34,741 bases of DNA, taken from positions 16,976 through 51,716 of the forward strand of contig PLJN01000195.1 of NCBI GenBank assembly GCA_003140235.1, written 5' to 3'. Numbering within the stretch: position 1 is the first letter of the stretch; each line of letters opens with the position of its first letter. This DNA is from Acidobacteriaceae bacterium. Its GTDB lineage: Bacteria > Acidobacteriota > Terriglobia > Terriglobales > Acidobacteriaceae. The notes under the pieces are model-generated. The model was not told where the DNA came from and made no database searches. It saw only the letters and a program-made list of their open reading frames with translations. The position numbers were made by a program, and so were the translations under genes. Below are positions 13,313 to 34,741 of this stretch, piece by piece.

Positions 13313-13767
13313 GTAGAGGACAGTGGTTGAATTCATCATCCACTTGTCATTCGACCCTGAGCCTGGCGAAGGGGAGGAATCTGCTTTGCGCGCACGTGGG
13401 TCGTTTCAAAATTCCGGCGATTATGGCAATTTTGGCATTTCTGGCAATCGTTCCCGGGATTCCCATAATAGAACTGAGTGCCGAAACGGGACACACTACA
13501 CACCTAGAGTCTCTAAAACTCCTTGACCGCAGTTAGTTTTGCCCTTAGAGTTCCGGCCAATTGCACCACACCAATCACAACAATCTATAAAGCTCCCCTG
13601 AGAGGGGCGACAGTTTGCGGAGTTTGAAGGGATTTGAGGCCAAACACCGTTCTTCAAGAAGATCAACTTGCGGCTAGCGAAACGGAGATTGTATTTATTC
13701 TCAAGGCCTTGAGCCAGTCTCGCGGTACGGCGGAATGCGTATATCAGGTTACGGGGAGGAGATTTCT
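13313..13767. other. Intergenic region with repeats, no gene seen
   Basis: This 455-bp stretch has no convincing coding frame. It holds a segment at about 13347-13383 reading GTCATTCGACCCTGAGCCTG and onward to GAGGAATCTGC, which resembles dispersed GTCATTC...GAGGAATCTGC elements. It also holds copy 3 of the 9-bp-period repeat. The last 250 bp is AT-richer and presumably carries the promoter of the six-gene cluster, but no clear -35/-10 pair was found. Confidence 0.6.
13414..13450. repeat. 9-bp-period repeat, copy 3
   Basis: CCGGCGATTATGGCAATTTT followed by GGCATTTCTGGCAATCG. With its AAATT leader it matches copy 2 almost exactly over the first 23 bases. It lies after the exported protein gene, so copies 1-2 and copy 3 bracket that gene. 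Confidence 0.8.
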
Positions 13768-15024
13768 GTGGGTAAGGCAAGGCGAAGCTGTTCTTCGTTG
13801 AAATGGAAGGGTCCATTGTGTCCTTTGCCCTTCATCTTGTACGTGATGCTGATCACTGCCTCAGGTAATTCTCAGATCTTTTACCACAAATCCAATGATG
13901 ATGCCGCTCAAAAGGCCTTGCAATTGAGCAAAGATGCTTCCCTTGCGGGGACACTTGATCCAGCATTAAAGAACCTCGACGTACTTGAAGATAAGGAAGC
14001 GAACATTGAATTTGACAATATGGCGCGTACGGCTCGCGCCGCCATAGACGCGACGAGTTGTTGGGGTGGGGTCATTTATGCAGTGTGCACGCTGAAGAAC
14101 TCGCCCCCTGCCATCGACTCACCATGCGCCCAGATACAAGGGAAAGTCACTCCTACCGAGCAGGGATGTAAGTTGGCGCTAGGAGATTTTGCCTCAGGCT
14201 TCACATTTCCTTTTCTCTCTACGCAAGAAATCCAGAAACGGCAGGAAGAACTGAAGAAGTCGCTCGATGACCTTAAGCACAAAGCCGATAAGTCAGCAGA
14301 TGTAACCTCCACGCTCACGGCAGCCTCCGAAGCTGTGAAACAAGCCCAGGATCTCTACGATCAAGGTATTGGATACCTGGCGAATGCCTCTTTCGTGAGC
14401 TCTCACACGCATGAATTTCAAGCTACGAAAGACGCGCTTGCACTGCTTTCCGATGATTTAGCTGGTCTGCAGGCGATTGAAAAAAAGAGAAAAGACATCA
14501 CTGATAAGGTGAAAAGTCTGTCAAATCCGCTCGCGTCATTGGAATCCGATCGTCTCCAAGCCGAACTAAATCACATCGAAGCATTACTTCGAATCTCGAG
14601 GCTGCGAGATCAAGAAGAGAATTACTTGCAGGTCAAGATCATTGGTACTTTCGAGACGGCATTGAAGAAGTACCCGGTTAATCTTAGCGATCGGATTGAT
14701 GCATCTTTCGCAAATTGTGGTAGCCAGAGCAATGCGTCGAGTCTTTGCGGCCGTGACCGCCTCAGCGATCTTGGCGAGGCACTTCAACTCTATACTGCTG
14801 CTTTGATTTGGGGAAAGGGCGCGGAGCAACTAAACGAGCTTCGGACCGCGCGTGAAGCGCACAGATTTTCCATTGAGGTGAGCATAGTCGACGCAAAGGC
14901 AGCCGATCTAGTCATCTCGACGGGCGTTCAAAGACTTGCTTTGTACCACCAAGGCGGCATCAAGCCGGAAACCCTAGCCCAGCTCATTTATGCGGCGGCG
15001 ACGATTGGCGTCGCTGCGAGGTAA
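13768..15024 (+). CDS. Exported helical/coiled-coil hypothetical protein
   Basis: A 418-residue protein with an N-terminal basic then hydrophobic segment (KWKGPLCPLPFILYVMLITA) that acts as signal peptide or anchor. The mature part is mainly helical with coiled-coil stretches (for example QKRQEELKKSLDDLKHKADK and a later LQAIEKKRKDITDKVKSL). Several Cys (CWGGVIYAVC, later CGSQ and LCGR) could form periplasmic disulphides. GTG at 13768 is chosen because GGGGAGGA lies before it; an in-frame ATG at 13735 lacks such a site. Base composition is lower in GC than neighbouring genes. I know no family for it. It opens a tight three-gene set, with a 5-bp gap to the next gene. Confidence 0.75.
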   Translation: MGKARRSCSSLKWKGPLCPLPFILYVMLITASGNSQIFYHKSNDDAAQKALQLSKDASLAGTLDPALKNLDVLEDKEANIEFDNMARTARAAIDATSCWGGVIYAVCTLKNSPPAIDSPCAQIQGKVTPTEQGCKLALGDFASGFTFPFLSTQEIQKRQEELKKSLDDLKHKADKSADVTSTLTAASEAVKQAQDLYDQGIGYLANASFVSSHTHEFQATKDALALLSDDLAGLQAIEKKRKDITDKVKSLSNPLASLESDRLQAELNHIEALLRISRLRDQEENYLQVKIIGTFETALKKYPVNLSDRIDASFANCGSQSNASSLCGRDRLSDLGEALQLYTAALIWGKGAEQLNELRTAREAHRFSIEVSIVDAKAADLVISTGVQRLALYHQGGIKPETLAQLIYAAATIGVAAR

Positions 15025-15029
15025 CCGAT

Positions 15030-15767
15030 ATGTCAAGACTTCTGATCTTCATCTGTATTATATCTGCACTCGCCTTAGCAGCAGACGCACAAAAGCCCCA
15101 GCCCAAGACCGATGCGCAGAAGTATGCCGCTGCTTTGGCTGATTACTTGGCAAAGATCGATGCTGAGTTGGCAAGCAAGCGTAAGGCCGAGAAAGACTAT
15201 TACACGGCGACTGCTGACGCCTACGAGGCACACTACTCTGATGACCTGCTTCAGACTCTGACCCTTGAAAGACGGGAGCGAGGTGAGGGATTGGCAGATC
15301 AAGTGCTCGCGAAGTCTGCACCTCTCACGTTGACGGCTTTGAGGATGCAAATGCTTGAGCAATCCCGGTCAGAGATCGTCAGCATGCGAAAGTTTGCTGA
15401 TGACGAACGGGCAATTCGTAGCGCCTATTTGTCGGGTGTCACTCAGCTTGATGCGAATGCAACTAAAGTCAAGGCCTTGCGCGACTCTCTTGACCAGCTT
15501 TCGCTCCCGAAAAGCGGTTGGGGGAACATCAAAGATCTTGGCACGTTTGGTGAGGAGGCCGGCGCAGCATATACGAAGCTTAAATGTGGAGACGTCAAGA
15601 AAGAAATCGATCAACTGACGAAGCAAAAGGCAGAATTAGAAAAAGTTACGAATCCGTCCAATGCTCAGACAGCTAAGCTGAAAAGTATTGCCAACAGCGT
15701 TAGTACTGATCAGAAATATTTGGACAACAGCTGCAAGGATTCTTCGAGTGGTGGAGGAGGAAATTAA
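15030..15767 (+). CDS. Exported Lys-rich coiled-coil protein
   Basis: A 245-residue protein. A clean signal peptide (MSRLLIFICIISALALAADA) is followed by a charged, mostly helical mature part with heptad-like stretches (KIDAELASKRKAEKDYYTAT; VKKEIDQLTKQKAELEKV). It ends in a Ser/Gly tail SSSGGGGN. Two Cys near the C-terminal half (LKCGDV, NSCKDS) may pair. GAGG in the end of the previous gene serves as ribosome binding site. No family recognised. Probably periplasmic, and by arrangement probably a partner of the preceding exported protein. Confidence 0.75.
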   Translation: MSRLLIFICIISALALAADAQKPQPKTDAQKYAAALADYLAKIDAELASKRKAEKDYYTATADAYEAHYSDDLLQTLTLERRERGEGLADQVLAKSAPLTLTALRMQMLEQSRSEIVSMRKFADDERAIRSAYLSGVTQLDANATKVKALRDSLDQLSLPKSGWGNIKDLGTFGEEAGAAYTKLKCGDVKKEIDQLTKQKAELEKVTNPSNAQTAKLKSIANSVSTDQKYLDNSCKDSSSGGGGN

Positions 15768-15770
15768 TCA

Positions 15771-16160
15771 ATGAACCCAAGCAACCCCATCTCGCTAGTA
15801 GGCGCAGAGGATCCGATTGATTTGGCAAAGCAAATCGACCAGGAACTCCAGGCAATTGGCTTGATCGTTCAGGCTTTGAACAGCCAGCCAGCCTCGCCCG
15901 ACATTACGAATTTATTGGCTCAGGCGTCAGCAACTCGAGACCACCTGAATCTGTTGAAAACGCATATCGCAGCGGCAACAACGGTTTTCAAGATAGATCC
16001 TGCTGACGATCATTACCTAACCCTGAAGGCGATTGGCGACCGGCTGGATGCGGCTATTAAGAAAGCGTCCCTTGTAAGCTCCTCAATCGATGAGCTGAAC
16101 TTGCTTCTCAGTACTGTCAACAAAGGGTTTCAGATCGCGCATACGTTGACTGCAGCATAA
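15771..16160 (+). CDS. Small helical hypothetical protein
   Basis: A 129-residue, mostly helical protein without a signal peptide or membrane segment (MNPSNPISLVGAEDPIDLAK at the start; TVNKGFQIAHTLTAA at the end). GGAGGAGG lies about ten bases before the ATG, and only 3 bp separate it from the previous stop, so it is the third gene of a likely operon. No motif suggests an activity; it may be a cytoplasmic partner or chaperone of its neighbours. The 245 bp after it holds one short frame (16209-16394) with no ribosome binding site, which I do not count as a gene. Confidence 0.7.
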   Translation: MNPSNPISLVGAEDPIDLAKQIDQELQAIGLIVQALNSQPASPDITNLLAQASATRDHLNLLKTHIAAATTVFKIDPADDHYLTLKAIGDRLDAAIKKASLVSSSIDELNLLLSTVNKGFQIAHTLTAA

Positions 16161-16405
16161 AAAAACGCGTGCACTTCGCAGGGATGCAATCCTCCGAATA
16201 GTCAACTTATGGATGCAACAAAACTTAAGCCTAGCTTGAATGGCCATTCCGGAGTCATATCTTACCGGCTTGGTGTGGCCCTAGATGAGCTACGCAAGTG
16301 CACCCCTCAAGCTAGCGTTCACCCAATTTTGATTAAGGGTGTGCGGTCGCCTCGGGAAGATGTTCTTCTCGACCAGACAATTGCCAATACTTAAGGAGAC
16401 GCGCC

Positions 16406-17683
16406 ATGCTTGAACAACTGGATACAGCGATTGGCTTTGTCACGGTACTGCTGCTGCTGAGCTTGACCATTACCGTCGTAGTCCAAGCCATTGCCTCGCT
16501 GCTCGATTTGCGTGGCAGAAATCTGGTATGGGCCTTGGCCAACCTTTTTCAACAGATCTCTCCGGAAGCGAACAATCAAGGCAAGAGCAGAAAACTGTTG
16601 CCGGCGCGCATGACAACTGTCGCGAAAGAGCTTGCCAAAGCGGTCGCCACTCATTCCGCCCTCGCTTCCACTGGGCTTCTGGGCGTGTACAAGGCCAAGG
16701 CAATCCGACCGGACGAGTTGATGGCGGTCCTGCAAAAGCTTGCCGCGAATCCCGATGCCCTAAGCGATGGCGCGAAACAGGTGCTGACCACGCTCCTAAC
16801 CAATCGTCTGCCCGGCAACAATGAGAACACGGCTTCCATGCAGGCGCTCGCCACCGAGTTCACCAAGCGCTTCCCGGTGCAACAAGTAACGCTGCACGAT
16901 GCGTTGATGGACATAGCCGGAAGCACAACACGGATTGCTGCAGGACTCGATCAGTGGTTTAAAACCGTGATGGATCGCGCCGCAGACCGCTTCGCCCGCA
17001 ACTGCAAGTTCTGGACCGTCGTGGGGGCAGTAGTGCTCGCGTTTGGTTTCCATATCAATGCGTTGCACGTCTACCGCCAGATCGCTTCCGATCCCGCCAC
17101 ACGTGCCAAGCTGGTGGCGGCTTCCGACTCCGTGATGCAGCGAGCCGAAAAAACCATGACAACCTTGGGCAGTAAGGCTCTCAACACTCTGGCCGCGGAC
17201 TCAGCGCTCAGCAAAGAACAGCAGGACGCGCTCAAGACTGCCCCGAGCGATCTTGCCGATTGTGCCCATGCGCGCTATTGGATGATGAGCCAGGACGCGT
17301 TGAAAAATGACCAGCGACTCTTTGGCCAATTGGACGTGGCTTGCACAGCCGCCGCGAAAGGACAATTGACAGCGGTGAGCCCCGATCTCTCCGCTATCAA
17401 CGGCCAGCTTGCGAATGCCGACCTTCATTTGTTTAAGGACTTCAGTTTCAAGCACGTCCCAGAGCCGTTTAACGGCGTAACAGTCACCGTCGCCCAACAA
17501 CTGGGCGGCGAACTGCTGACGGTCCTGTTGCTGAGTCTTGGTGCTCCTTTCTGGTACAACACTCTGCGCCAGCTCTCAAACCTGAAGTCTTCTGTCTCCC
17601 GGAAGGTCGACAACGAGGCCCAGGCGAAAGGCTCGACTGACCAGAAACAGAAACAAGCAGACGCGACAGCATCCGGCGGATAG
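16406..17683 (+). CDS. Three-helix membrane protein of unknown function
   Basis: A 425-residue protein with a hydrophobic helix at about 10-32 (VTVLLLLSLTITVVVQAIAS), a second at about 203-222 (VVGAVVLAFGFHINALHV) and a third at about 366-384 (GGELLTVLLLSLGAPFWYN). Between helices 2 and 3 is a helical soluble region with two or three Cys. AAGGAG precedes the ATG. The C-terminus is Lys/Gln-rich and polar. I do not recognise a named family. The 12-bp spacing to the amidase gene that follows suggests they are made together and that this protein could serve as its membrane partner or passage. That role is inferred only. Confidence 0.75.
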   Translation: MLEQLDTAIGFVTVLLLLSLTITVVVQAIASLLDLRGRNLVWALANLFQQISPEANNQGKSRKLLPARMTTVAKELAKAVATHSALASTGLLGVYKAKAIRPDELMAVLQKLAANPDALSDGAKQVLTTLLTNRLPGNNENTASMQALATEFTKRFPVQQVTLHDALMDIAGSTTRIAAGLDQWFKTVMDRAADRFARNCKFWTVVGAVVLAFGFHINALHVYRQIASDPATRAKLVAASDSVMQRAEKTMTTLGSKALNTLAADSALSKEQQDALKTAPSDLADCAHARYWMMSQDALKNDQRLFGQLDVACTAAAKGQLTAVSPDLSAINGQLANADLHLFKDFSFKHVPEPFNGVTVTVAQQLGGELLTVLLLSLGAPFWYNTLRQLSNLKSSVSRKVDNEAQAKGSTDQKQKQADATASGG

Positions 17684-17695
17684 AGGTAGATAATT

Positions 17696-18490
17696 ATGGT
17701 CAATGCGGCAACTGCGATTCCCATTTTTCCCGGACATACCATAGGCCTGCGGGACCCTGATACACAGTCAACCGTGCTCATCCAGCGTCGGATAAACCAG
17801 GTTGGCTGCGGACCGGTCGCAGAAGATGGCGACTTCGGCCCGCAGACCCAGGAGGCCGTTGAGCTCTTCCAGACCCGCGCGGCAGACCATTTCGGCCTGC
17901 CACTCGCGGTAGATGGCAGCGTGGGCCCGCTGACATGGGCGAGCCTCTTTGCCGTTCCCGAAGTGCCGACAGTGCAGACTGCTCCGGCGCCTCTTCTTGC
18001 CGCGACACTCAAATTCGCGGCGACCCAGATTGGTGTGATGGAGCAGCCTCTCGGCTCCAATCGCGGCCCCGAAGTTGACGAGTACCTCCGCTCCGTTGGT
18101 ATTGATCCAACTACCGGGAGCTTCCCCTGGTGCGCAGCCTTCGTATATTTCTGTTTCCGACAGGCAGCCATTGCTCAGGGCGTGGCCAATCCAGTCATTC
18201 AGACCGGTGGCGTTCTCGACCATTGGAACCGCGCCGGCGCCGCCGGTATTCGCCGGCTCGGCACGGATGAGTGCATTGCGAATCCTTCCCTCGTCACGCC
18301 AGGACTGATCTTCATCATCATCAACAAGAACGGAAGCGGACATACCGGACTGGTGGAAGCCGTCACCGGAACCTATCTGACGACCATTGAAGGAAATACG
18401 AACGACAACGGATCTCGCGAAGGGGTGGGCGTGTTCCGCAGGCAAAAACGCACGATTGCCAGCATAAGCCGGGGGTATATTTCGTACTAA
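17696..18490 (+). CDS. Peptidoglycan-binding / CHAP-like amidase (TIGR02594-like)
   Basis: A 264-residue cell-wall enzyme candidate. Residues about 25-88 form a PG_binding_1 domain (EDGDFGPQTQEAVELFQTRA and DGSVGPLTWASLF). Residues about 103-260 form an NlpC/P60-CHAP type cysteine amidase. It has PWCAAFVYFCF with catalytic Cys146, GHTGLVEAV with His216 and TIEGNTN with Glu232/Asn234. Such enzymes cut peptide links in peptidoglycan. There is no signal peptide, so it must be released by lysis, by a holin-like or secretion route, or act on incoming material. GAGGT precedes the ATG. Neighbours are a three-helix membrane protein and a twin-patatin protein. Confidence 0.88.
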   Translation: MVNAATAIPIFPGHTIGLRDPDTQSTVLIQRRINQVGCGPVAEDGDFGPQTQEAVELFQTRAADHFGLPLAVDGSVGPLTWASLFAVPEVPTVQTAPAPLLAATLKFAATQIGVMEQPLGSNRGPEVDEYLRSVGIDPTTGSFPWCAAFVYFCFRQAAIAQGVANPVIQTGGVLDHWNRAGAAGIRRLGTDECIANPSLVTPGLIFIIINKNGSGHTGLVEAVTGTYLTTIEGNTNDNGSREGVGVFRRQKRTIASISRGYISY

Positions 18491-18607
18491 ACAACCGTCA
18501 AGCCCTGAAGCTCAGGCGTTTTCGATGGGTGCTCTCCCAAGGTAGCGCAGGTCTTTTAGATCTCTTCATTACCAACAAGAATCGTGCGGCAACAGGAGTT
18601 CTCCCAT

Positions 18608-21600
18608 ATGGCCGGTCGCCAAGCGGCAGATGCTTCGAAAAATGGGCGTAAGCCAGGTCCCGTCCCACAGCAAGATGCCGGGCAGACTCAGCATGAAGAT
18701 GAAGGCGTGTGCTTTACCGCCGGGATTCAGGGTGCTCCCTTCGGCGCCGGTGTAATCCACGCTTATCTGGCCGCCCGACGTGGTGCTCCTCGCGTTGTAG
18801 CCGGCATCTCGCTGGGTTCACTCACCGCGGCAGCTTTTCAGCGTGCTTTCCGTGAGTGCCAGAAGGACCCGGGCAGTGCAGACACCCGCTGGCAATGGTA
18901 TCGCCGCTATCTGCGGAGCATTTCCGAGAAGCCTTTTGACGTGATATGGTCCGGCATTCCCAACCAGTCTGACTTCTTCGCTGAATTCATTCCGGTCAAG
19001 GACCCGGTACCGGAAACGATTCTAGACCCTGTCGTGCGCGAGAAATTCATCGAGGGGGAACTCCAGGCCCGCCGTGATTTGACCCTTTTCGTAACGCTCG
19101 GTCACTGGGTCTCCCGCATGCCGCTCAAGGTCGGCAGCGTGGCCGATTTCGTCATCCAGTATGTTCGCTTGAAAGAGAAATATGGACACTCGGCGATCCG
19201 CCGTTTTCTGGCTTTCTTATATACGCTCCTTAAGATTCTGTTCGTGCCTGTTTTCCATACCGCGCTCCATCCTATGTTCATCAACGAGGCACGCTTTGGC
19301 AAAAAAAACCAGTGGCCGGAGATCACCTTCGTTGCCACTTGCTTCATGCTGACGCCGCCGCTGCTGCTGCTCGGATGGGTGCTCCAGAACGCAGCCACAC
19401 ACCCTTTCTGGCAATTAATCGGATACGCAGTTGCGGTTACGGTCTCCGCATTCCTTCTCCTGTGGTGGCTGAAGAAGAACTCACGGCCTTTGCTTGGCTG
19501 GCCTCTGTATGGCGCTTGCGTAAGTTTCTCATTAGCCTTTTTCCTGGCCGGCCTCTTCGTCTTCGCTTGGGACTTTTGGAAGTTTGCACAATTGCTACAG
19601 ACCACCCACTTCCCCGTAGCCGACGGTATTGGTCGTGTTCTTGTCAACGTTAATGGCCCCTTACTCGAGGTCATAAAAGAAGCGTTGAGCCTTTTATTCC
19701 TTGTAGTCTTTATTGCCACTCTTTTATTGGTCCGCAGAATAATTGCAGAAGCCCAGCCCAAACGAAGGCGGGCGATCGACGCGGGCCTGGCCCTGCCCAT
19801 CAAGAAGCTCCTACAAATGATTTTCAAGTCTCAAGGCTGGGGATGGATTACTGTGGCCCTCATCGTTCTGTCGCTCGGCGTCGTAATCGCCAGCGGCTTC
19901 CCCGGGGCGTTCAGCACATGGCTGCTGTCCCTTGCCTCGCGTCTCCACATTAGCGACGCGCTCAACACATTTACCAACGGTGTATCTTCCCTGATCGACA
20001 ACGCCTACAACTTCAACCGCAGAATCATGATCGTCGCCACGGCCATTTTTCTGCTTTATCTGGTGAGGAAGGGCCAGCCGCTGACCGCCAGCGAGGTTGA
20101 CGCACAACGCTCCGCCAGACGCCGTCGCCGGATCACGGCATTCACTCTGCCTCTGTCCACCTGGATCGCGCTATCCGTCGTGATGTTCAGCGCGCTCGAA
20201 GCCATCTTGCTTCTTGCCGAGGTGAGGTACGCTGCACGCATCCTGTTCGCAGTCTTCTGCATGATCCCTCTGGTCCCCCTAGTCGAGGCCTTTTTGAAAG
20301 AATGGTATCGACGTGCTGGAGTCAGGATCCGCAAATGGCTCGGCTTTCTCGCCGGCGTGGTCTTCGGCAACCTCAATCTGCACAAGGCCCTGGTCCACAA
20401 TTATTACCTCAGGCTGCAACTCTTTCAACTTTTTCAGGAAGACAACAAGGACCCCATCCTTCAGGACGACCCGTTTCCTGTTGTGCTCGTAGCTGCTCCG
20501 TTGCAGGTAATTGGGGTCGGCCACCGCGACCTGGGGGCTTCACAGGTATGGGCCAACACCGGCAGTTCTCTGGTCGACGCGCTGACCGCGACTCTGGCTC
20601 TCCCCGGACTCTATGAACCCACACATCTGGAGAAACCCGCGCGGCTGAAAAAAGACAGCGCCCCGAGCAAGGAGATGGCGAACGGTATCCAAGAGAAGAA
20701 AGGACTGGACGCCTGGTGGTTTCCCGAAGAGCTCAGACCCAAACTTCAGGAGGTCGATATTTGCGATGGAGCAGTGATCCGCCAAAATCCCATCCCGGCA
20801 TTGTTCAATTTTATTGCTCAGGATTGCGACCAAAGCAGAGACCTGGCGGTCCGCCTGTCCGGCGATGGCGACAAACCTAAACTGCACGTGGTCTACAGTG
20901 TGCCCACTGAAGCTCGCGAGCCCGACAAGCGAAAATGCGATACCACCATCGTAGATGTCGGTCTCGACGCCGTGAAGCTGGCCCGCCGCCGCGACACACA
21001 GTTGGAAGTCCGGCAGACGAACCGGCTCAGCCAGATGCAGCAACAGCTCCTTGCGGTTGGAATAGTTTACCCGCGCATCCATCCTATCTTTGCTGACGAG
21101 ATCGCCCCTGACTCCGACCCTAACTTCACAAACCCACTCAACCCTACCCGCGACGAAGTGCTGGATCGCGTGGCTGCCGGCTGCCGCGCCACACTTCAGG
21201 TGCTCTACGCGCGAGACCTTTCCCAGCTTAGAGGTAAGTCAACCACGAAAACCATCCCGTGTCCCCGGCTGATGTTGAAAGTTGCCCGTCGCCCCGGCCA
21301 GCCGCCTGAGTTCCCCGGTTTACCAGAGGTTTGCCAGGCCTGCAACGCAGCCTGCGGAATGCAACTCAAGGCATCCAAACGGCAGAGGGGTAGGACAGTT
21401 CCCAAGCTTGCGACCACCTGGTCCGTGCTGCCCAATGAAGCCGGCCAATCGGCCAGTTTGGGAGACAAGAAAACGACGCTACCGCTCCAAATCCAGGCTG
21501 ACCGCAGGGCTGCTCTCGACCCTACCGATCCCATCTCGGAAGCGGACCTCGATGGAACCAAGCCGCGCATTGTTTTTGTGGCCAGTGGTGGCGTCTTTCG

Positions 21601-23644
21601 CGGCACTTTTCACGGCGGTATGATCGCCGCCCTTCTTACGGCGCGCATCAAGCCCGATCTGGTGGTCGGCGCTTCCGTCGGAACCATCATGGGAGGCGCG
21701 TTGGCTGCCGCCTTCTGTGCTCATGATTATCCCGCCGCCGTTGACCACCTTGAGGAGCTTACGGCCGTGCTGCTCGCGGTGGACCAGGACATCGCTTTCA
21801 CCAAGTCTTTCAAGAATGCCACGCGCGATCTCGGCATCCGTGCTCGCGCTGTCGCCATCTCACCCAACGCGGTCCGCAAAATGGTCCTGGCCGGCGGCAG
21901 CAAAGATGCCGGCTTCGCTGCCGTCGGCGCTCCCTCCGCGCTGATTGACAGCCTTTCCCATCTGCTCCTGATTCCCCACAAGAAGACCGCCGACATCGCG
22001 GCCGAATTCATTGCCGGTCACGTGACCGCTGCCACCAAGCTGCTGCTCGATCAGTTGAAGATCGAAACGCTCAAACGCCTGAGTATCGAAAACTCGCTCA
22101 TCGGCACGTCCTTGATCCAGCCCACGGCCAACCGCCTCCTTAACTCTGATGGCGTTGACCTCAAATCGATTCAGCCGTTCCTGGTGTGCCAGATCGCAGT
22201 CTACGGCACCACAGTCGATTACTGGCGGCGGCAGCCGGTGCTGCTGGGAGACAACAACAAAGACCGCGGACCACTCTATGATTTTGTTGAATCCGCACTC
22301 TGCTCCAGCGCTTTCCCCTGCGTCTTCTCAACACGCCGGGAGAGCGATCTCTATCCCGGCACCGGCTCTTCCACAACGCTGTACAGCGACGGAGGAATGT
22401 TTGACAACCTGCCCTTCCTTCCGGCCATCGAGATCCTGCGCAAGGCCCAGGTCAAGAAGATCAATCAAGATAAGGAAGAAGCAGAGAAAGACAGGAAGGG
22501 CACCGCAGTTGATGTCTCCATTAAATCCTTGTGCCACCGATGGAACGAACCCGACCTTTTCCTGGCTGGCTCCCTCGATGTAAATCTGCATCGGCAGCAG
22601 GACCCCGACAACACTTTCGACAATATCCGCGAGATCACCCGCCGCGCCTCCGCTTTGCAGAACAACGTAAAAATCAAGGGCTTTGAGCAGGTCATGATGA
22701 CCATCGATGACCAAGTCGGCCATCTCGTTGAATGGGCGCAACAGACGCCTGATGATCCCAATCGCGGCAAACTCGAGCAAGACTTCATTGACGGCGTTGT
22801 CAATGCCTCCATTCTGCCGGTCTATCCTGCCGACCCTGAGCACCTGAACGGCACATTTGCGTTTTGCGCCAGCACCGGTCTGGACCAAGGGCGTCTCAAG
22901 GACTCCATCGCCGACGGCTGCTTCCAAACCTTTAAGGCTTTGACCGATCCTGATGCTGCTTCCGATATTGCTGCCGAGGTCAAACCCAGTCCACTCCAGC
23001 GCAGCTTCCGCGCTCTCAAACAATGTGGCAAAATACCTGATATCGAGTGGCAGAAGCCCCCGCAGAAGGGGGTCTCGCCGCCAGCGGGCGAGTGTAAGTT
23101 CTTCCGCTGCTCCAGTTTTTCTGGCGAATGGCCTGCTGCGCAGCCCCTCGACTCCGTACAAAATGTTCAGTGCCCATTCTTCCAGGCAGCCGATCAAATC
23201 GAACGGGAGATTCCCAGGCTGAAATCCGAAAGCGCCGGCCAGCTCAAGGAACTAAAGCAGCGTGAGCGTGACACCCGTCAGCTCGCGAAACAGACGGCAA
23301 AACTTAAGAAGCGTGTCTTGGAGGGTACGGCCACTGCTGAGGATTTTGCAAGGTACCACTTTCAGGATCCTGATTTCAGCCAGGAACTCACAGAATTGCA
23401 GGCTGTGAGCGCGCCTGATGTTGAAGGCCTTGAGAAACGCTACCGCGCAATCCAGGACATGGCCGACCGGATTTCGGATCAGATTTCCAAACACAAATCC
23501 AGTACGCGTAGCCGCCTTGCGGAGAAAGAACAACGCCGAGACTCAATCCGGGAAATATACGACCGGTGCATCACCGACGAAGTGCATAATCGAGCCCACA
23601 AAAAGGCGAAAGTTGTCACAAAAAACCCGGGACAATCCCCATAG
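18608..23644 (+). CDS. Giant membrane protein with two patatin-like phospholipase domains
   Basis: A 1678-residue protein with two full sets of patatin catalytic motifs. Domain 1 has GIQGAPFGAG as oxyanion loop, GISLG with Ser68, and CDGAVIRQNP with Asp720. Between its Ser and Asp lie eight or nine hydrophobic helices (about 195-570). Domain 2 is compact: SGGVFRGTFHGG, GASVG with Ser1023, and YSDGGMFDN with Asp1261. Two Cys clusters occur (CQACNAAC at about 909-916 and four Cys near 1475-1525). The C-terminus is a charged coiled coil (about 1540-1665). Patatins are Ser-Asp lipid acyl hydrolases. AGGAG lies nine bases before the ATG at 18608; an in-frame GTG at 18584 is less likely. It follows the amidase gene by 117 bp. 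Confidence 0.88.
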   Translation: MAGRQAADASKNGRKPGPVPQQDAGQTQHEDEGVCFTAGIQGAPFGAGVIHAYLAARRGAPRVVAGISLGSLTAAAFQRAFRECQKDPGSADTRWQWYRRYLRSISEKPFDVIWSGIPNQSDFFAEFIPVKDPVPETILDPVVREKFIEGELQARRDLTLFVTLGHWVSRMPLKVGSVADFVIQYVRLKEKYGHSAIRRFLAFLYTLLKILFVPVFHTALHPMFINEARFGKKNQWPEITFVATCFMLTPPLLLLGWVLQNAATHPFWQLIGYAVAVTVSAFLLLWWLKKNSRPLLGWPLYGACVSFSLAFFLAGLFVFAWDFWKFAQLLQTTHFPVADGIGRVLVNVNGPLLEVIKEALSLLFLVVFIATLLLVRRIIAEAQPKRRRAIDAGLALPIKKLLQMIFKSQGWGWITVALIVLSLGVVIASGFPGAFSTWLLSLASRLHISDALNTFTNGVSSLIDNAYNFNRRIMIVATAIFLLYLVRKGQPLTASEVDAQRSARRRRRITAFTLPLSTWIALSVVMFSALEAILLLAEVRYAARILFAVFCMIPLVPLVEAFLKEWYRRAGVRIRKWLGFLAGVVFGNLNLHKALVHNYYLRLQLFQLFQEDNKDPILQDDPFPVVLVAAPLQVIGVGHRDLGASQVWANTGSSLVDALTATLALPGLYEPTHLEKPARLKKDSAPSKEMANGIQEKKGLDAWWFPEELRPKLQEVDICDGAVIRQNPIPALFNFIAQDCDQSRDLAVRLSGDGDKPKLHVVYSVPTEAREPDKRKCDTTIVDVGLDAVKLARRRDTQLEVRQTNRLSQMQQQLLAVGIVYPRIHPIFADEIAPDSDPNFTNPLNPTRDEVLDRVAAGCRATLQVLYARDLSQLRGKSTTKTIPCPRLMLKVARRPGQPPEFPGLPEVCQACNAACGMQLKASKRQRGRTVPKLATTWSVLPNEAGQSASLGDKKTTLPLQIQADRRAALDPTDPISEADLDGTKPRIVFVASGGVFRGTFHGGMIAALLTARIKPDLVVGASVGTIMGGALAAAFCAHDYPAAVDHLEELTAVLLAVDQDIAFTKSFKNATRDLGIRARAVAISPNAVRKMVLAGGSKDAGFAAVGAPSALIDSLSHLLLIPHKKTADIAAEFIAGHVTAATKLLLDQLKIETLKRLSIENSLIGTSLIQPTANRLLNSDGVDLKSIQPFLVCQIAVYGTTVDYWRRQPVLLGDNNKDRGPLYDFVESALCSSAFPCVFSTRRESDLYPGTGSSTTLYSDGGMFDNLPFLPAIEILRKAQVKKINQDKEEAEKDRKGTAVDVSIKSLCHRWNEPDLFLAGSLDVNLHRQQDPDNTFDNIREITRRASALQNNVKIKGFEQVMMTIDDQVGHLVEWAQQTPDDPNRGKLEQDFIDGVVNASILPVYPADPEHLNGTFAFCASTGLDQGRLKDSIADGCFQTFKALTDPDAASDIAAEVKPSPLQRSFRALKQCGKIPDIEWQKPPQKGVSPPAGECKFFRCSSFSGEWPAAQPLDSVQNVQCPFFQAADQIEREIPRLKSESAGQLKELKQRERDTRQLAKQTAKLKKRVLEGTATAEDFARYHFQDPDFSQELTELQAVSAPDVEGLEKRYRAIQDMADRISDQISKHKSSTRSRLAEKEQRRDSIREIYDRCITDEVHNRAHKKAKVVTKNPGQSP

Positions 23645-24532: not shown

Positions 24533-27500
24533 ATGTCGTACCCGTTTTCAGCCAAGCGCGTTCTGATGGTGATTGCTACGCTAGCGCTCGCCGCGTGTTG
24601 CTTTGCCCAAGACAAAGATAAAGACAATACGAAGAAAGACCCGAAACAGAAAACCGATGCCAGCAAAACCTCGCAAACGCCAGCAGCCAAACCTGCAGCG
24701 GAAACAACTCCGGCGCCGGACGACACTGACACCGACGCCAAAGGCCCGTGGCATGGGCTAACGTGGCGGCTGGTTGGGCCTTATCGTGGCGGACGCGTGC
24801 TGGCGGTTTCTGGCGTGGTGGGTGATACGCACACTTATTATTTTGGCGGCGTAGGCGGCGGCGTTTGGAAAACTTCTGACGGCGGTTTGACTTGGCGTCC
24901 GGTAACTGACAAGACGAAAGACATGTCGGCCTCCATTGGCGCGATCGCTGTAGCGCCGTCTGACCCTAACGTGATTTACGCTGGGACTGGCGAAGCCTGT
25001 ATTCGCGGCAACATCATTTCCGGAAACGGCGTTTACAAATCCATCGACGCCGGCAAGACCTGGGCTTACACCGGACTGCGCGATACCGATGCGATTGGCC
25101 GCCTGATTGTCCATCCCAAAGATCCGAACATCGTGTACGTTGCGGCGCTTGGCCATGTTTTTGGTCCCAATGCCGAACGCGGCATCTTCCGCACCACCGA
25201 TGGCGGCAAGAACTGGACCAAGGTCCTCTATAAAGATGAAAACACCGGCGCCATTGATGTTGCGTTTGATCCCACGAATCCCAACATTCTTTTTGCCGGA
25301 TTGTGGCAGGCGCGGCGCTCGCCCTGGAGTATGGACGGCGGCGGTCCGGGCAGCGGGCTGTATCGCAGCACCGATGGCGGCAACACGTGGAAGCATCTTG
25401 AAAAACACGGGCTTCCTGAAACTACCATCGGACGCATTGGCGTTGCCGTGGCGTATGCGAATGGCAATCGCGTTTGGGCGCTGATAGAAGCGGACAAAGG
25501 CGGGCTCTTCCGCTCCGACGATGGCGGCGACAACTGGACGCTCATCAACAGCGACCGCCAGTATCGTCAGCGGGCGTTTTATTACACCCACGTGTTTGCC
25601 GATCCGCGTTCGCCGGACGCTGTCTACATTCTTAACACTGGCATGTATCGCTCGATTGACGGTGGCAGGGCGTTTCGTCCTATTCGCACGCCGCATGGCG
25701 ACAACCATGGATTCTGGGTTGATCCTGCCGATGCTGAGCGCATGATTGAGTCCAATGACGGCGGCGCGAACGTGAGCACTAACGGCGGCGCGAGTTGGAC
25801 TACGCAGGGCAATCAACCGACGGCGCAGTTCTATCACGTAATCGCGGACAATCGCTTTCCCTATTTCGTCTACGGTTCGCAGCAGGACAACACTTCTGTA
25901 GGCATTGCCAGCGCGAGTGAACGCGGCGGAATTGATCGTCCGGATTGGTACCCCGTCGGCGGCGGCGAAAGCGGATACATTGCGCCCGATCCGCGCGATC
26001 CGGAAATTGTTTATGCCGGCTCCTACGGCGGTGAGATCACGCGTTACGACCACCATACCGGCCAGGAAAAGAATGTTACGCCGTGGCCGATTAATCCGAT
26101 TGGCCAGCCGGCCATAGAGCAGAAATACCGTTTCCAGTGGACCGAGCCGATTGCCTTCTCGCCGCATTCTCCGAACACGCTTTATTTCGCTGCGCAGGTT
26201 TTGTTCAAGACCACCGACGGAGGAATGAACTGGCAGATCATCAGCCCAGACCTCACGCGCAATGACAAGGTCAGGCAAGCGTCATCCGGCGGACCGATCA
26301 CCAAAGACAACACCGGCATTGAAGTCTACGACACGATTTTTTCTATAGTGGAATCACCGTTGCAGAAAGACCTGATCTGGGTGGGCACCGACGACGGCTT
26401 GGTCCAGATCACGACCGACGGTGGAAAGAATTGGTCCAACGTTACTCCGAAAAATATGCCCGAGTGGGGCACCGTGACCATGGTTGAGGCTTCGCCGTTT
26501 GATGCCGGCACGGCTTACGTCACAGTCGAGCGCCACCGTCTGGACGATTTTGCTCCTTACGCATTCAAGACTACCGACTTCGGCAAGACCTGGACTTCCA
26601 TCACCAACGGCATTCCCGCGGGAGCGTACGCGCATGCGGTCCGCGAAGACCGCAAGCGCAAAGGCCTGCTCTATGCCGCAACGGAAAAAGGCGTCTTCGT
26701 TTCGTTTGACGATGGCGCGAACTGGCAGCCACTGCAAACGAACTTGCCCGTGGCGCCGGTGTGGGACATTTATGTCCACGACAACGACCTGATTGCCGCA
26801 ACGCATGGCCGGTCTTTCTGGATTCTTGACGATCTCTCACCGCTGCAACAGTACAAACCGGAAGTCGCGAATGAAGATGTGCATCTGTATCCGCCCAGCC
26901 CGGCGAATCACACGCAGTTCGGCGGAGGCTTTGGAGGCGGCGGTGGAGCAGTCGGGCAGAATCCTCCGGCAGGCGCTGTGATTTATTACTTCTTGAAAAC
27001 CGCGCCCAAGAAACCGGAAGGCCGGCGCGGCTCTGGGGATGCGACTGCTTCCGACACTGAAGCCGGCAAGAGCACTGGCATCACTTTGGAAATTCTCGAC
27101 CAGAAAGGCCAGGTCATCCGCAAGCTTCCTCCGAAGCCGCAAACCGGCGAAGCCGTTGGCGGCGACGAAGAAGGCTTCGGGCGCCCCGGAGCACGCGCCC
27201 TCCCCGCAGAAGCGGGTTTGAACCGTTACTCATGGGACCTGCACTATGAAGGCGCCACGCGTGTTCCAGGCTCGCCGCTCTGGGCCGGAAATACTGACGG
27301 GCCTGAAGCTCTGCCCGGCACTTATCAGGTACGGCTCACAGTAAACGGCAAAGCATACACCGCGCCGCTCGAAATCAAACCCGATCCGCGGCTGCAAATC
27401 ACGCAGCAGGATTTGGAAAAACAATTCGATCTGCTCATCAAGATTCGCGAGCGTGTTACGCAGGCGCACGACACGGTGAACCAGATTCGCGATATCCGTG

Positions 27501-27871
27501 CTCAGATCACCGCGTTGAACAAACGCCTGGAAGGTCAGCCGCAAGCCAAAGCCGTGGCCGATGCCGGCAAACAACTCGACAAGAAGATGACGGAGATAGA
27601 AGAAGTCCTGATCCAGACCAAAGCCAAAAGCAGCCAGGACGTGCTCAATTATCCGATTCGCCTAAACAACTATTTGGTCGCTCTCGGCGGAGTAGTGGGC
27701 GGCTCGGATTCAGCGCCGACCCAGGTTTCATACGAAGTGTTTGACATGCTGAGCAAACAAGTCGACGAACAATTGGCTAAATGGAAAGTGGTTCTGAGCA
27801 CCGATGTGCCGGCATATGACGCCGTTGTGCAGCAGCAACAAGTGCCGGCAATCATTCTGGCGAAACCATAA
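24533..27871 (+). CDS. Exported VPS10/BNR-repeat beta-propeller protein
   Basis: A 1112-residue exported protein. The N-terminus has a hydrophobic signal (VLMVIATLALAACCFAQ); LAAC resembles a lipobox, so it may be a lipoprotein. A low-complexity Lys/Thr/Pro stretch follows. About residues 75-790 form propeller blades with repeated Asp-box motifs such as TSDGGLTW, TTDGGKNW, STDGGNTW, SDDGGDNW and TTDFGKTW. These are typical of sortilin/VPS10-like and BNR proteins. The C-terminal region has a Gly-rich linker (FGGGFGGGGGAVG), a beta domain and a helical end. CGGAGG precedes the ATG. Such proteins are abundant in Acidobacteriota; the substrate, if it is an enzyme, is unknown. Confidence 0.85.
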   Translation: MSYPFSAKRVLMVIATLALAACCFAQDKDKDNTKKDPKQKTDASKTSQTPAAKPAAETTPAPDDTDTDAKGPWHGLTWRLVGPYRGGRVLAVSGVVGDTHTYYFGGVGGGVWKTSDGGLTWRPVTDKTKDMSASIGAIAVAPSDPNVIYAGTGEACIRGNIISGNGVYKSIDAGKTWAYTGLRDTDAIGRLIVHPKDPNIVYVAALGHVFGPNAERGIFRTTDGGKNWTKVLYKDENTGAIDVAFDPTNPNILFAGLWQARRSPWSMDGGGPGSGLYRSTDGGNTWKHLEKHGLPETTIGRIGVAVAYANGNRVWALIEADKGGLFRSDDGGDNWTLINSDRQYRQRAFYYTHVFADPRSPDAVYILNTGMYRSIDGGRAFRPIRTPHGDNHGFWVDPADAERMIESNDGGANVSTNGGASWTTQGNQPTAQFYHVIADNRFPYFVYGSQQDNTSVGIASASERGGIDRPDWYPVGGGESGYIAPDPRDPEIVYAGSYGGEITRYDHHTGQEKNVTPWPINPIGQPAIEQKYRFQWTEPIAFSPHSPNTLYFAAQVLFKTTDGGMNWQIISPDLTRNDKVRQASSGGPITKDNTGIEVYDTIFSIVESPLQKDLIWVGTDDGLVQITTDGGKNWSNVTPKNMPEWGTVTMVEASPFDAGTAYVTVERHRLDDFAPYAFKTTDFGKTWTSITNGIPAGAYAHAVREDRKRKGLLYAATEKGVFVSFDDGANWQPLQTNLPVAPVWDIYVHDNDLIAATHGRSFWILDDLSPLQQYKPEVANEDVHLYPPSPANHTQFGGGFGGGGGAVGQNPPAGAVIYYFLKTAPKKPEGRRGSGDATASDTEAGKSTGITLEILDQKGQVIRKLPPKPQTGEAVGGDEEGFGRPGARALPAEAGLNRYSWDLHYEGATRVPGSPLWAGNTDGPEALPGTYQVRLTVNGKAYTAPLEIKPDPRLQITQQDLEKQFDLLIKIRERVTQAHDTVNQIRDIRAQITALNKRLEGQPQAKAVADAGKQLDKKMTEIEEVLIQTKAKSSQDVLNYPIRLNNYLVALGGVVGGSDSAPTQVSYEVFDMLSKQVDEQLAKWKVVLSTDVPAYDAVVQQQQVPAIILAKP

Positions 27872-33752: not shown

Positions 33753-33827
33753 TGGTCCGGGTGGCAGGAGTTGAACCTGTGTGGACATGCTCCCAAGGCA
33801 TGTGGGTGGCCGCTACCCTACACCCGG
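33753..33827 (-). tRNA. tRNA-Pro(UGG)
   Basis: Acceptor CCGGGTG/CACCCGG, A73 and encoded CCA. Anticodon stem CATGC/GCATG with loop CTTGGGA gives anticodon TGG, with U33 and G37 as usual for Pro. The outermost T-stem pair is an A-C mismatch. This is the last tRNA of the array in the reading direction. Confidence 0.92.
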
Positions 33828-33833
33828 AATTCT

Positions 33834-33907
33834 TGGTGGCTCGTCGCGGAATTGAACCGCGTCCACCGGCTTTTCAGGCCAGCACTCTACCGTCGAGTTC
33901 ACGAGCC
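33834..33907 (-). tRNA. tRNA-Phe(GAA)
   Basis: Acceptor GGCTCGT/ACGAGCC, A73 and encoded CCA. Loop CTGAAAA gives anticodon GAA. T-loop TTCAATT is normal. Only 6 bp separate it from tRNA-Pro. Confidence 0.95.
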
Positions 33908-33912
33908 AAATT

Positions 33913-33986
33913 TGGTGGACGGTGCGAGAGTTGAACTCGCATTGCACGGGTGCAGGCCGTGAGTAATCCCCTTATACGAACCGCCA
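33913..33986 (-). tRNA. tRNA with UGC anticodon, Ala-like, aberrant
   Basis: Acceptor TGGCGGT/ACCGTCC with A73 and encoded CCA. It has a U1-C72 mismatch and a G3-U70 wobble, the classic Ala identity pair. Anticodon stem CACGG/CCGTG encloses CCTGCAC, giving anticodon TGC but with C, not U, at position 33. Reading the loop one base over would give GCA (Cys) but breaks the stem. The T-arm GCGAG-TTCAACT-CTCGC is normal. Amino acid identity is therefore tentative. Confidence 0.65.
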
Positions 33987-33991
33987 AAAAC

Positions 33992-34067
33992 TGGGGTGAG
34001 ATACGAGATTCGAACTCGTGTGTCGAGGTTCACAGCCTCGCGTCTAATCCTCTCGGCCAATCTCACC
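33992..34067 (-). tRNA. tRNA-His(GUG)
   Basis: Acceptor GTGAGAT/ATCTCAC with the extra G-1 opposite C73, the hallmark of His tRNA, and encoded CCA. Loop CTGTGAA gives anticodon GTG. T-loop TTCGAAT is normal. Confidence 0.95.
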
Positions 34068-34076
34068 ATCGAAACC

Positions 34077-34150
34077 TGGAGCTGGCCGAGTGAATCGAAC
34101 ACTCGTCGGAGAGGTACAAGCTCTCTGCACTGCCATTGTGCTAGACCAGC
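34077..34150 (-). tRNA. tRNA-Thr(UGU)
   Basis: Acceptor GCTGGTC/GGCCAGC, U73 and encoded CCA. Loop CTTGTAC gives anticodon TGT. First of three adjacent Thr tRNAs with different anticodons. Confidence 0.93.
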
Positions 34151-34157
34151 AAACTTT

Positions 34158-34231
34158 TGGAGCTGGCACCGCGAATCGAACGCGGATCTCGTGCCTACCA
34201 TGCACGGGCTCTGCCACTGAGCTATGCCAGC
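34158..34231 (-). tRNA. tRNA-Thr(GGU)
   Basis: Acceptor GCTGGCA/TGCCAGC, U73 and encoded CCA. Stem CGTGC/GCACG with loop ATGGTAG gives anticodon GGT. Confidence 0.94.
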
Positions 34232-34233
34232 GG

Positions 34234-34305
34234 AGCTGACGCGGCGATTCGAACGCCGATCACGGACTTACGAGGCCCGCGCTCTGCCCACTGAGCTACA
34301 TCAGC
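34234..34305 (-). tRNA. tRNA-Thr(CGU)
   Basis: Acceptor GCTGATG/CGTCAGC, U73. Loop CTCGTAA gives anticodon CGT. The 3' end reads CCG rather than CCA, so CCA is not encoded here. Confidence 0.93.
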
Positions 34306-34322
34306 ACAACTTCTTTAAGACT

Positions 34323-34398
34323 TGGAGGCGGCGGGGAGAATTGCACTCCCGATGATCCGCTCTGCAGGCAGACGCCTTGCTGTCTTGGCTACACCGCC
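34323..34398 (-). tRNA. tRNA-Cys(GCA) with GUGC T-arm
   Basis: Acceptor GGCGGTG/CGCCGCC, U73 and encoded CCA. Stem TCTGC/GCGGA with loop CTGCAGA gives anticodon GCA. The T-loop reads TGCAATT instead of TTCRANY: position 55, normally pseudouridine, is G. The T-stem GGGAG/CTCCC is intact. Confidence 0.88.
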
Positions 34399-34429
34399 TC
34401 AAACTTCTTCTGGCTCCTTCTCAAACTAG

Positions 34430-34500
34430 AGCGGAGTACGGGAATTGCACCCGTGTTTCCGGACTGGCGATCCGGGGTACTGCTCCTGTACGAACTCCGC
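34430..34500 (-). tRNA. tRNA-Gly(GCC) with C33 and GUGC T-arm
   Basis: Acceptor GCGGAGT/ACTCCGC with U73, as in Gly tRNAs. Stem CCGGA/TCCGG with loop TCGCCAG gives anticodon GCC, but position 33 is C. The T-loop is TGCAATT with G55. All stems are intact. The bases after U73 are CTA, not CCA. Confidence 0.8.
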
Positions 34501-34502
34501 GA

Positions 34503-34576
34503 TGGAGCGAGCAGCGAGAGTCGAACTCGCGTTGTCGGGTTGGAAGCCCGAAGCACAGCCGCTATACCATGCTCGC
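34503..34576 (-). tRNA. tRNA-Gly(UCC)
   Basis: Acceptor GCGAGCA/TGCTCGC, U73 and encoded CCA. Stem TCGGG/CCCGA with loop CTTCCAA gives anticodon TCC. Canonical T-loop TTCGACT. It lies next to the aberrant Gly(GCC). Confidence 0.94.
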
Positions 34577-34589
34577 CCTTCTAAAACTT

Positions 34590-34666
34590 TGGCAGGGGTG
34601 ACAGGATTCGAACCTGCTTGAACTGGTTTTGGAGACCAGCGCCCTTCCTATCGGGTCATCACCCCT
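34590..34666 (-). tRNA. tRNA-Trp(CCA)
   Basis: Acceptor AGGGGTG/CACCCCT, G73 and encoded CCA. Stem CTGGT/ACCAG with loop CTCCAAA gives anticodon CCA. T-loop TTCGAAT. Confidence 0.96.
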
Positions 34667-34667
34667 G

Positions 34668-34741
34668 TGGCGGTCGCAACGGGAGTTGAACCCGTCCCTC
34701 CTGATAGACAGTCAGGCATCCTGCCGCTAGACTCTGCGACC
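34668..34741 (-). tRNA. tRNA-Asp(GUC)
   Basis: Acceptor GGTCGCA/TGCGACC, G73 and encoded CCA. Stem CCTGA/TCAGG with loop CTGTCTA gives anticodon GTC. Its 5' end is the last base of the window, and one base separates it from tRNA-Trp. The array probably continues beyond the edge. Confidence 0.95.

Follow-up and report, generated by a model that had tools for sequence, protein, structure and literature searches.

A membrane protein recurrently encoded beside leaderless wall hydrolases and patatins: a possible modular lysis-type system in Acidobacteriota and other bacteria

We analysed a stretch of 34,741 nucleotides (the window) on contig PLJN01000195.1 of an Acidobacteriaceae bacterium, whose draft genome (GCA_003140235.1) comprises 4.9 Mb in 204 contigs. 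ORF calling shows six co-oriented genes in it, g1 to g6, at 13768-23644, laid out as in a preliminary description made from the sequence alone. The conserved unit is not this six-gene set; the membrane protein g4 is the hub, beside which enzymes of different folds recur interchangeably, the wall hydrolases among them having no leader and the tail of the amidase-paired g4 proteins carrying a motif that tracks the amidase. Quite possibly, at somewhat below even probability, the cluster is one version of a lysis-type system, modular and chromosomal, in which g4 would hold or gate leaderless wall hydrolases while patatins attack lipids. In the window itself the hub is joined to a CHAP enzyme and a twin patatin, so the well-supported pairing with Amidase_2 is not what this cluster reproduces.

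The recurrent pairing was analysed in 90 non-duplicate g4 loci, five of the 70 loci from genome_contigs having been dropped as copies. In 54 of the 90, a co-directional gene lies at most 300 bp downstream of g4, and among these 54 genes Pfam recognises Amidase_2 (17), PG_binding_1 (6), Patatin (4), PF04185 phosphoesterases (2), caspase (2), TPR-S (2), nSTAND1 (1) and CHAP (1, in the window). Amidase_2 thus occurs in 17 of 54 downstream genes vs at most one of 81 control genes lying at least four positions from g4 (Fisher 3.7e-7, taking 1/81), where the control bound means that no such family is found among those with at least two members, 25 of 112 families being listed; one caspase gene (L138:8217) falls in the control set. 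Patatins are found within three genes of g4 in 10 of 459 genes vs 3 of 658 further off, a comparison biased by seeds taken partly from near genes. Amidases directly follow g4 in records of Acidobacteriota, Methylococcales and Acetobacteraceae, and a twin patatin is present in the g4 neighbourhood in Acidobacteriota (the window and L077), Verrucomicrobia (L104) and a Woeseiaceae gammaproteobacterium (L148). Several loci bring both kinds of enzyme together: L226 (Methylococcales) reads patatin, g4, amidase, a 194-aa protein and patatin; L082 starts with a patatin, followed in turn by a 1,077-aa protein, by g4 and by a double Amidase_2; in L077 the same kind of series runs from the twin patatin through a 1,034-aa relative of the 1,077-aa protein to g4 and an Amidase_2. 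In other loci the partners differ, with an Amidase_2-caspase fusion after g4 in L081, caspases and nSTAND1 near g4 in L138, TPR-S neighbours in L110, L117, L125 and L129, and phospholipase-C-like PF04185 phosphoesterases directly after g4 at two distant loci (L012:9865-11094 and L100:9053-10399). Near the more distant B-type g4 proteins we find Amidase_3 together with an M74-like protein (L088), a GH19-like protein (L086) and a lysozyme (L239).

The g4 proteins paired with an amidase are marked by GE-x-G-[DNIVL] near the C-terminus, for example GERGDLxxxG or GERGILG. Among the discovery loci the motif is present in 16 of 17 paired ones vs none of 71 others, with 88 of the 90 loci scorable, the pattern chosen after viewing this set, and L150 counted as motif-bearing with its g4 split and the motif inside a fragment; the one paired locus without it is L081, where the amidase is fused to a caspase. 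Two held-out sets agree with this. From the order of Methylococcus capsulatus, where 57 of 251 genomes have g4 relatives, 40 places were fetched out of the 57 genomes and eight already seen were dropped, and in the 32 remaining loci, scored by reading the g4 ends, the motif occurs in 17 of 17 paired vs 2 of 15 unpaired loci, and in each of these two a broken amidase frame comes directly after g4. From the window's class, 40 places out of 84 genomes were fetched and nine dropped, and in the last 70 residues of g4 in these 31 loci the motif is found in the single paired locus vs none of 30 unpaired ones (L321 being placed with the unpaired, as its g4 is broken and the 107-aa match there is the SH3-like tail of that g4). 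Combined, the held-out sets give 18 of 18 paired vs 2 of 45 unpaired. In 13 of the 17 paired proteins of the first set GGPFW stands in place of G[ATSV]PFW, and one other g4 is split. In a tree of 80 rows built without the tail, the pairing changes at least eight times and the motif nine times (78 scored rows); seven independent tree pairs, from which L010 and L126 at contig ends were excluded and in which short or split g4 genes such as L139 and L150 have no place, are concordant in 6.9 cases on average over 200 pairings and opposed in none (median p = 0.016, range 0.016-0.031). We rejected the motif as a disguised ribosome-binding site, since its wobble bases and third residue vary and it lies well upstream of the amidase start; because the wobble bases vary, the tail is conserved as protein. 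These sequence comparisons argue strongly for a joint function of g4 and the amidase, in which the two are probably in contact.

The wall hydrolases beside g4 have no recognisable leader. Among 33 Amidase_2 partners (16 from the discovery set and 17 held-out, the L081 fusion being left out), none of the 32 examined has a signal-like N-terminus when starts are taken at the conserved domain, L226 falling outside the pattern of the script. The start of 15 of the 17 discovery amidases lies between -1 and 29 bp from the g4 end, a distance into which a leader would hardly fit; in L142 and L150 the overlap is larger. The label endolysin is given by PHROGs to all four partners tested, namely g5, two Amidase_2 proteins and the L239 lysozyme. 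An SH3-like domain accompanies the amidase (Pfam SH3_3, below cut-off in L077), and this part continues the g4 chain in L161, L162, L325 and also L321, where g4 is broken. In the window the hydrolase is g5 (17696-18490, plus strand), which begins 12 bp after g4 and matches PG_binding_1 (5.1e-10) and CHAP (6.5e-9), both over the Pfam cut-off, and endolysin in PHROGs (3.5e-20). It carries the motifs PWC, GHTG and EGNTN, in which we take the Cys and His to be the catalytic residues of CHAP. Its N-terminal hydropathy is low, and g5 agrees with the signal-less PG-binding/CHAP-like amidase of the preliminary description.

The hub protein itself, g4 (16406-17683, plus strand, 425 aa), belongs to a family of roughly 310-650 aa without a Pfam or PHROGs match. 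Its relatives occur in 25 of 297 genomes of the phylum, own included, in 84 of 399 genomes of the class (E <= 1e-10), and in the 70 genome_contigs loci, many from Acidobacteriota records, whose hosts include Acidobacteria, Verrucomicrobia, Gamma- and Alphaproteobacteria, Nitrosomonas, Myxococcota, Calditrichota and others. An AlphaFold2 model from 50 sequences is almost all-helical (pLDDT 87.2, pTM 0.77), an earlier one from eight sequences being poor (pLDDT 66.6). Two helices exceed the hydropathy threshold and the model adds a C-terminal one bearing SLGAPFW, which fits the three-helix membrane protein of the preliminary description. The fold finds no significant match in PDB (best E = 0.17, TM about 0.1), and the g4 profile gives one match to PDB sequences at E = 0.023; the sequence search of PDB gives no match for g5, nor for one amidase. 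From the positive charges around the helices, and from a loop rich in Pro, Ala and Thr that precedes the last helix in relatives, the C-terminus may be predicted to face the cytoplasm. Word searches of the open-access literature returned no account of the g4 family or of its pairing with amidase and patatin. As side observations, long relatives of about 575-643 aa with no recognised partner occur in one lineage of the class (L326-L333, L341 and L342), with two copies each in genomes G711 and G732; in the Sphingomonadales-type loci L144, L145, L146 and L149, g4 shares its last four bases with a convergent gene for some 265 aa; and proteins of one family, about 1,030-1,080 aa long, are encoded directly before g4 in L077:4314-7418, L082:6032-9265, L103:6748-9921 and L316, with no Pfam match in the two members scanned (L077 and L082).

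Downstream of g5 lies g6 (18584-23644, plus strand), a twin patatin of 1686 aa from GTG 18584, or 1678 aa from the alternative ATG 18608. Pfam reports Patatin in three stretches (1e-24), and two motif pairs are present, Ser76/Asp728 and Ser1031/Asp1269 (GxSxG with DGG or DGA). Eight predicted membrane helices interrupt the first patatin domain, falling after Ser76 and before the DGA at 728; the double patatin with many membrane helices described before is confirmed, and likewise the catalytic motifs for both wall and lipid cleavage, in g5 and g6 respectively. By pattern, among 11 twin patatins, the window's included and L282 being a fragment, the second pair is kept in 10 and the first Asp in 6. 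A possible fusion of a g4-like N-terminus to the L148 patatin was considered; the best domain E, 0.025 in a search of two sequences, is not significant.

The first three genes precede the hub on the plus strand. The product of g1 (13768-15024), 418 aa from GTG 13768, is an exported, mostly helical protein; a longer ORF opens at 13735, and the GTG at 13768 is preceded by a GGAGGAG-like ribosome-binding sequence. Its designation as coiled-coil stems from weak matches to coiled-coil families. Following it are g2 (15030-15767), an exported helical protein of 245 aa with a signal-like N-terminus, and g3 (15771-16160), a small helical protein of 129 aa without signal peptide. Hydropathy finds hydrophobic N-termini in g1 and g2, the two proteins previously called exported, and none in g3, g5 and g6. 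The gaps from g1 to g6 are 5, 3, 245, 12 and 93 bp (the last 117 bp with the g6 start at 18608), so that order and tight spacing stand as described; the ORF caller is greedy and can err in GC-rich genomes. None of g1 to g4 has a Pfam match above the curated cut-off, and promoter-like and terminator-like counts in the window show no excess over shuffles. A relative of g1 is found as a lipoprotein-like gene directly after g4 in L101 of Verrucomicrobiales (E = 1.1e-11), where another lipoprotein-like gene, of 195 aa, weakly resembles g2 (7e-4); L101 is the one other locus with a clear g1 and a weak g2 relative, and g3 has no relatives among the loci searched. The Woeseiaceae locus L148 keeps the window's order with lipoprotein-like genes of 320 and 220 aa, a 171-aa gene, g4 and the twin patatin, a likeness of layout only, its first three genes having no detectable sequence similarity to g1-g3. 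Lipoproteins near g4 in the discovery set, by a home-made predictor, number 9 of 459 within three genes vs 5 of 658 further off, which led nowhere. Outside the cluster, we observe in the window a dense array of 12 tRNA genes at 33753-34741 on the minus strand, and at 24533-27871 a sortilin/BNR-repeat protein (named from Pfam) that each genome of the genus matches several times, 6-9 times in eight of nine genomes and 3 times in one, split matches being counted separately. Other flanking genes read as RapZ, a TonB receptor and YceI.

The six-gene cluster is accessory, because four congeners (L276-L279) keep both the RapZ-like and the sortilin/BNR flanks with g1-g6 all missing between them; three congeners (G002, G005 and G006) carry other, divergent g4 relatives. 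We rejected the idea that the six form a set conserved as a whole, no second copy of exactly these genes being found. A twin patatin with both domains matched is present in 4 of 297 genomes of the phylum, own included, any patatin match in 103 of 297, and the first 960 residues in 8 of 399 genomes of the class, own included. The preliminary description had proposed one system damaging both peptidoglycan and phospholipid, to be checked by a neighbourhood search with g4 and the twin patatin. Such enzymes do lie together with the same membrane family in distant bacteria, which upholds the first part; no second six-gene copy exists among our loci and the twin patatin is rarely beside g4. Its own ground for doubt, homologues of the patatin and amidase genes standing mostly apart with the other four genes absent, holds for the twin patatin, seven of nine such loci having no g4 in the fetched stretch.

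From this anatomy we infer a mechanism in which g4 would sit in the inner membrane and hold or gate a phage-type peptidoglycan hydrolase, probably through docking on its cytoplasmic C-terminal tail. The hydrolase has no export signal of its own, being CHAP in the window, Amidase_2 in the best-supported relatives and others near distant relatives, and would have to pass across the membrane. Patatins such as g6, presumably anchored in the inner membrane, would hydrolyse phospholipids, and on a trigger the membrane and wall would be attacked together and the cell would lyse. The TPR-S, STAND or caspase neighbours may be sensors in some relatives, while a place of action in the periplasm or at the outer membrane is probable for g1 and g2. 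The simplest mechanism to use every part would combine a membrane protein that gates or acts like a holin, an endolysin belonging to it, and phospholipases that break the membrane.

Several observations weigh against this lysis-type mechanism. In 36 of the 90 g4 loci there is no close co-directional downstream gene (two of them end at a contig end and two are SH3 fusions), and among the 31 new class loci the amidase is beside g4 only in L353, 30 being without; so often lacking a recognised partner, g4 may have a general role. Patatin directly downstream of g4 is found in 4 of 54 vs at most 1 of 81 control genes (p = 0.08), weak alone, and twin patatins mostly stand without g4, which lies in the fetched stretch of two of the nine loci (the window and G131), the loci coming from patatin searches, some stretches being cut by contig ends, and G630 and G886 having g4 on another contig. 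Many of the 17 held-out paired loci are close kin and not 17 independent cases. The window's own g4 has no tail motif; it is a member of a sister clade (28 tree rows, of which L010 ends at a contig end) where both the motif and Amidase_2 pairing are unseen, and the pairing of CHAP with g4 is seen in the window only. A leaderless amidase could instead act on cytosolic muropeptides.

The most probable of the alternatives, though improbable on balance, is a housekeeping envelope module, in which g4 would tether hydrolases that trim or recycle peptidoglycan while patatins remodel lipids in normal growth. The commonness of g4 in the class and the lack of a recognised sensor gene in most loci fit with it, and Amidase_2 includes cytosolic recycling enzymes such as AmpD. 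However, g4 is patchy within the genus, unrelated enzyme folds substitute for one another, some loci have caspase and STAND neighbours, and PG-binding and SH3-like targeting domains would be needless for recycling soluble muropeptides.

Somewhat less likely still is an attack module, where g4 would store or load hydrolases and lipases used against other bacteria, through a contractile injection system or the lysis of a few cells. It draws on L132:1-9985 (Methylococcales), in which four genes precede the g4-amidase pair, one being DUF6519 by family search and the others resembling contractile-injection tail or baseplate proteins, and on the effector-like mix of enzymes with phage-type SH3-like and PG-binding targeting domains. 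Relatives of these four genes are, however, in L132 only among the 90 loci, sheath genes being outside the search; no immunity gene is recognised, without a search aimed at such genes; and DUF6519 has no match in the window's genome, though the control genomes gave none either.

Abortive infection, with the same parts triggered by phage, would make the cluster an anti-phage defence, which we think more improbable again. The TPR-S, nSTAND1, caspase and patatin neighbours are domains known from conflict systems, and lysozyme- and papain-like peptidoglycan effectors with EAD1 are mentioned in passages of PMC7159879. In the window, by contrast, PADLOC matches no described system and gives weak hits alone, to coiled-coil and patatin-effector entries. 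Beside most g4 loci no sensor is recognised, and the genes flanking the window's cluster read as housekeeping ones. A prophage or phage-remnant lysis cassette, suggested by the resemblance of g5 and the amidases to phage endolysins, is very improbable and was rejected as the origin of g4, which has no match in 50,697 phage records or PHROGs, no confirmed relative in viral contigs and a single weak match in plasmids, with no phage structural gene recognised around the cluster, whose flanks were read without a dedicated phage-gene search.

If the lysis-type reading is true, soil and methane-oxidising bacteria possess lysis modules built on a membrane protein that has no kinship with phage holins, and the enzyme carried by a hub could be told from a short tail motif. 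Leaderless wall hydrolases would then have a new way of being restrained, and regulated self-lysis could be tested directly in species that grow in culture, Methylococcus capsulatus among them. The wider proposal, an undescribed class of lysis machines with a conserved inner-membrane platform, a replaceable cytoplasmic tail recruiting interchangeable killing enzymes (wall hydrolases of various folds, phospholipases and caspases) and exported coiled-coil (lipo)proteins for the outer layers, serving regulated self-lysis across several phyla, is somewhat less probable, and we put it forward as speculative.

Among the closest known arrangements is the phage holin-endolysin cassette, where an inner-membrane protein gene is followed by the gene for a signal-less hydrolase of interchangeable fold. 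The g4 loci resemble it in having a membrane protein gene and then a leaderless hydrolase of varying fold; unlike it, g4 has roughly 310-650 aa, is chromosomal, has no phage relative in our searches and bears the amidase-tracking tail, and some loci have patatin, caspase or STAND neighbours. Patatin-like phospholipases also serve as effectors of bacterial immunity, the CapV type. Like these, g6 has the Ser-Asp patatin domain and is predicted to destroy the membrane of its own cell, whereas it differs in its two patatin domains with inserted helices and in having no cyclic-nucleotide synthase recognised nearby; its PADLOC match to this type is weak (1.2e-4). Patatins in other operons are described in parts of PMC12419801. 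Chromosomal control of lysis by immunity-like genes, without holin-endolysin, is reported for LypABC of Caulobacter (PMC13236601), which differs from the g4 loci in being a peptidase/ATPase system, the words patatin and amidase being absent from the main text of that source. Lastly, the NTP-dependent conflict systems with EAD1, as far as portrayed in sections of PMC7159879, differ from the g4 loci in the membrane hub and tail motif of the latter, most of which have no NTPase, while they resemble some of these loci in bringing caspase, STAND and peptidoglycan-cleaving parts together.

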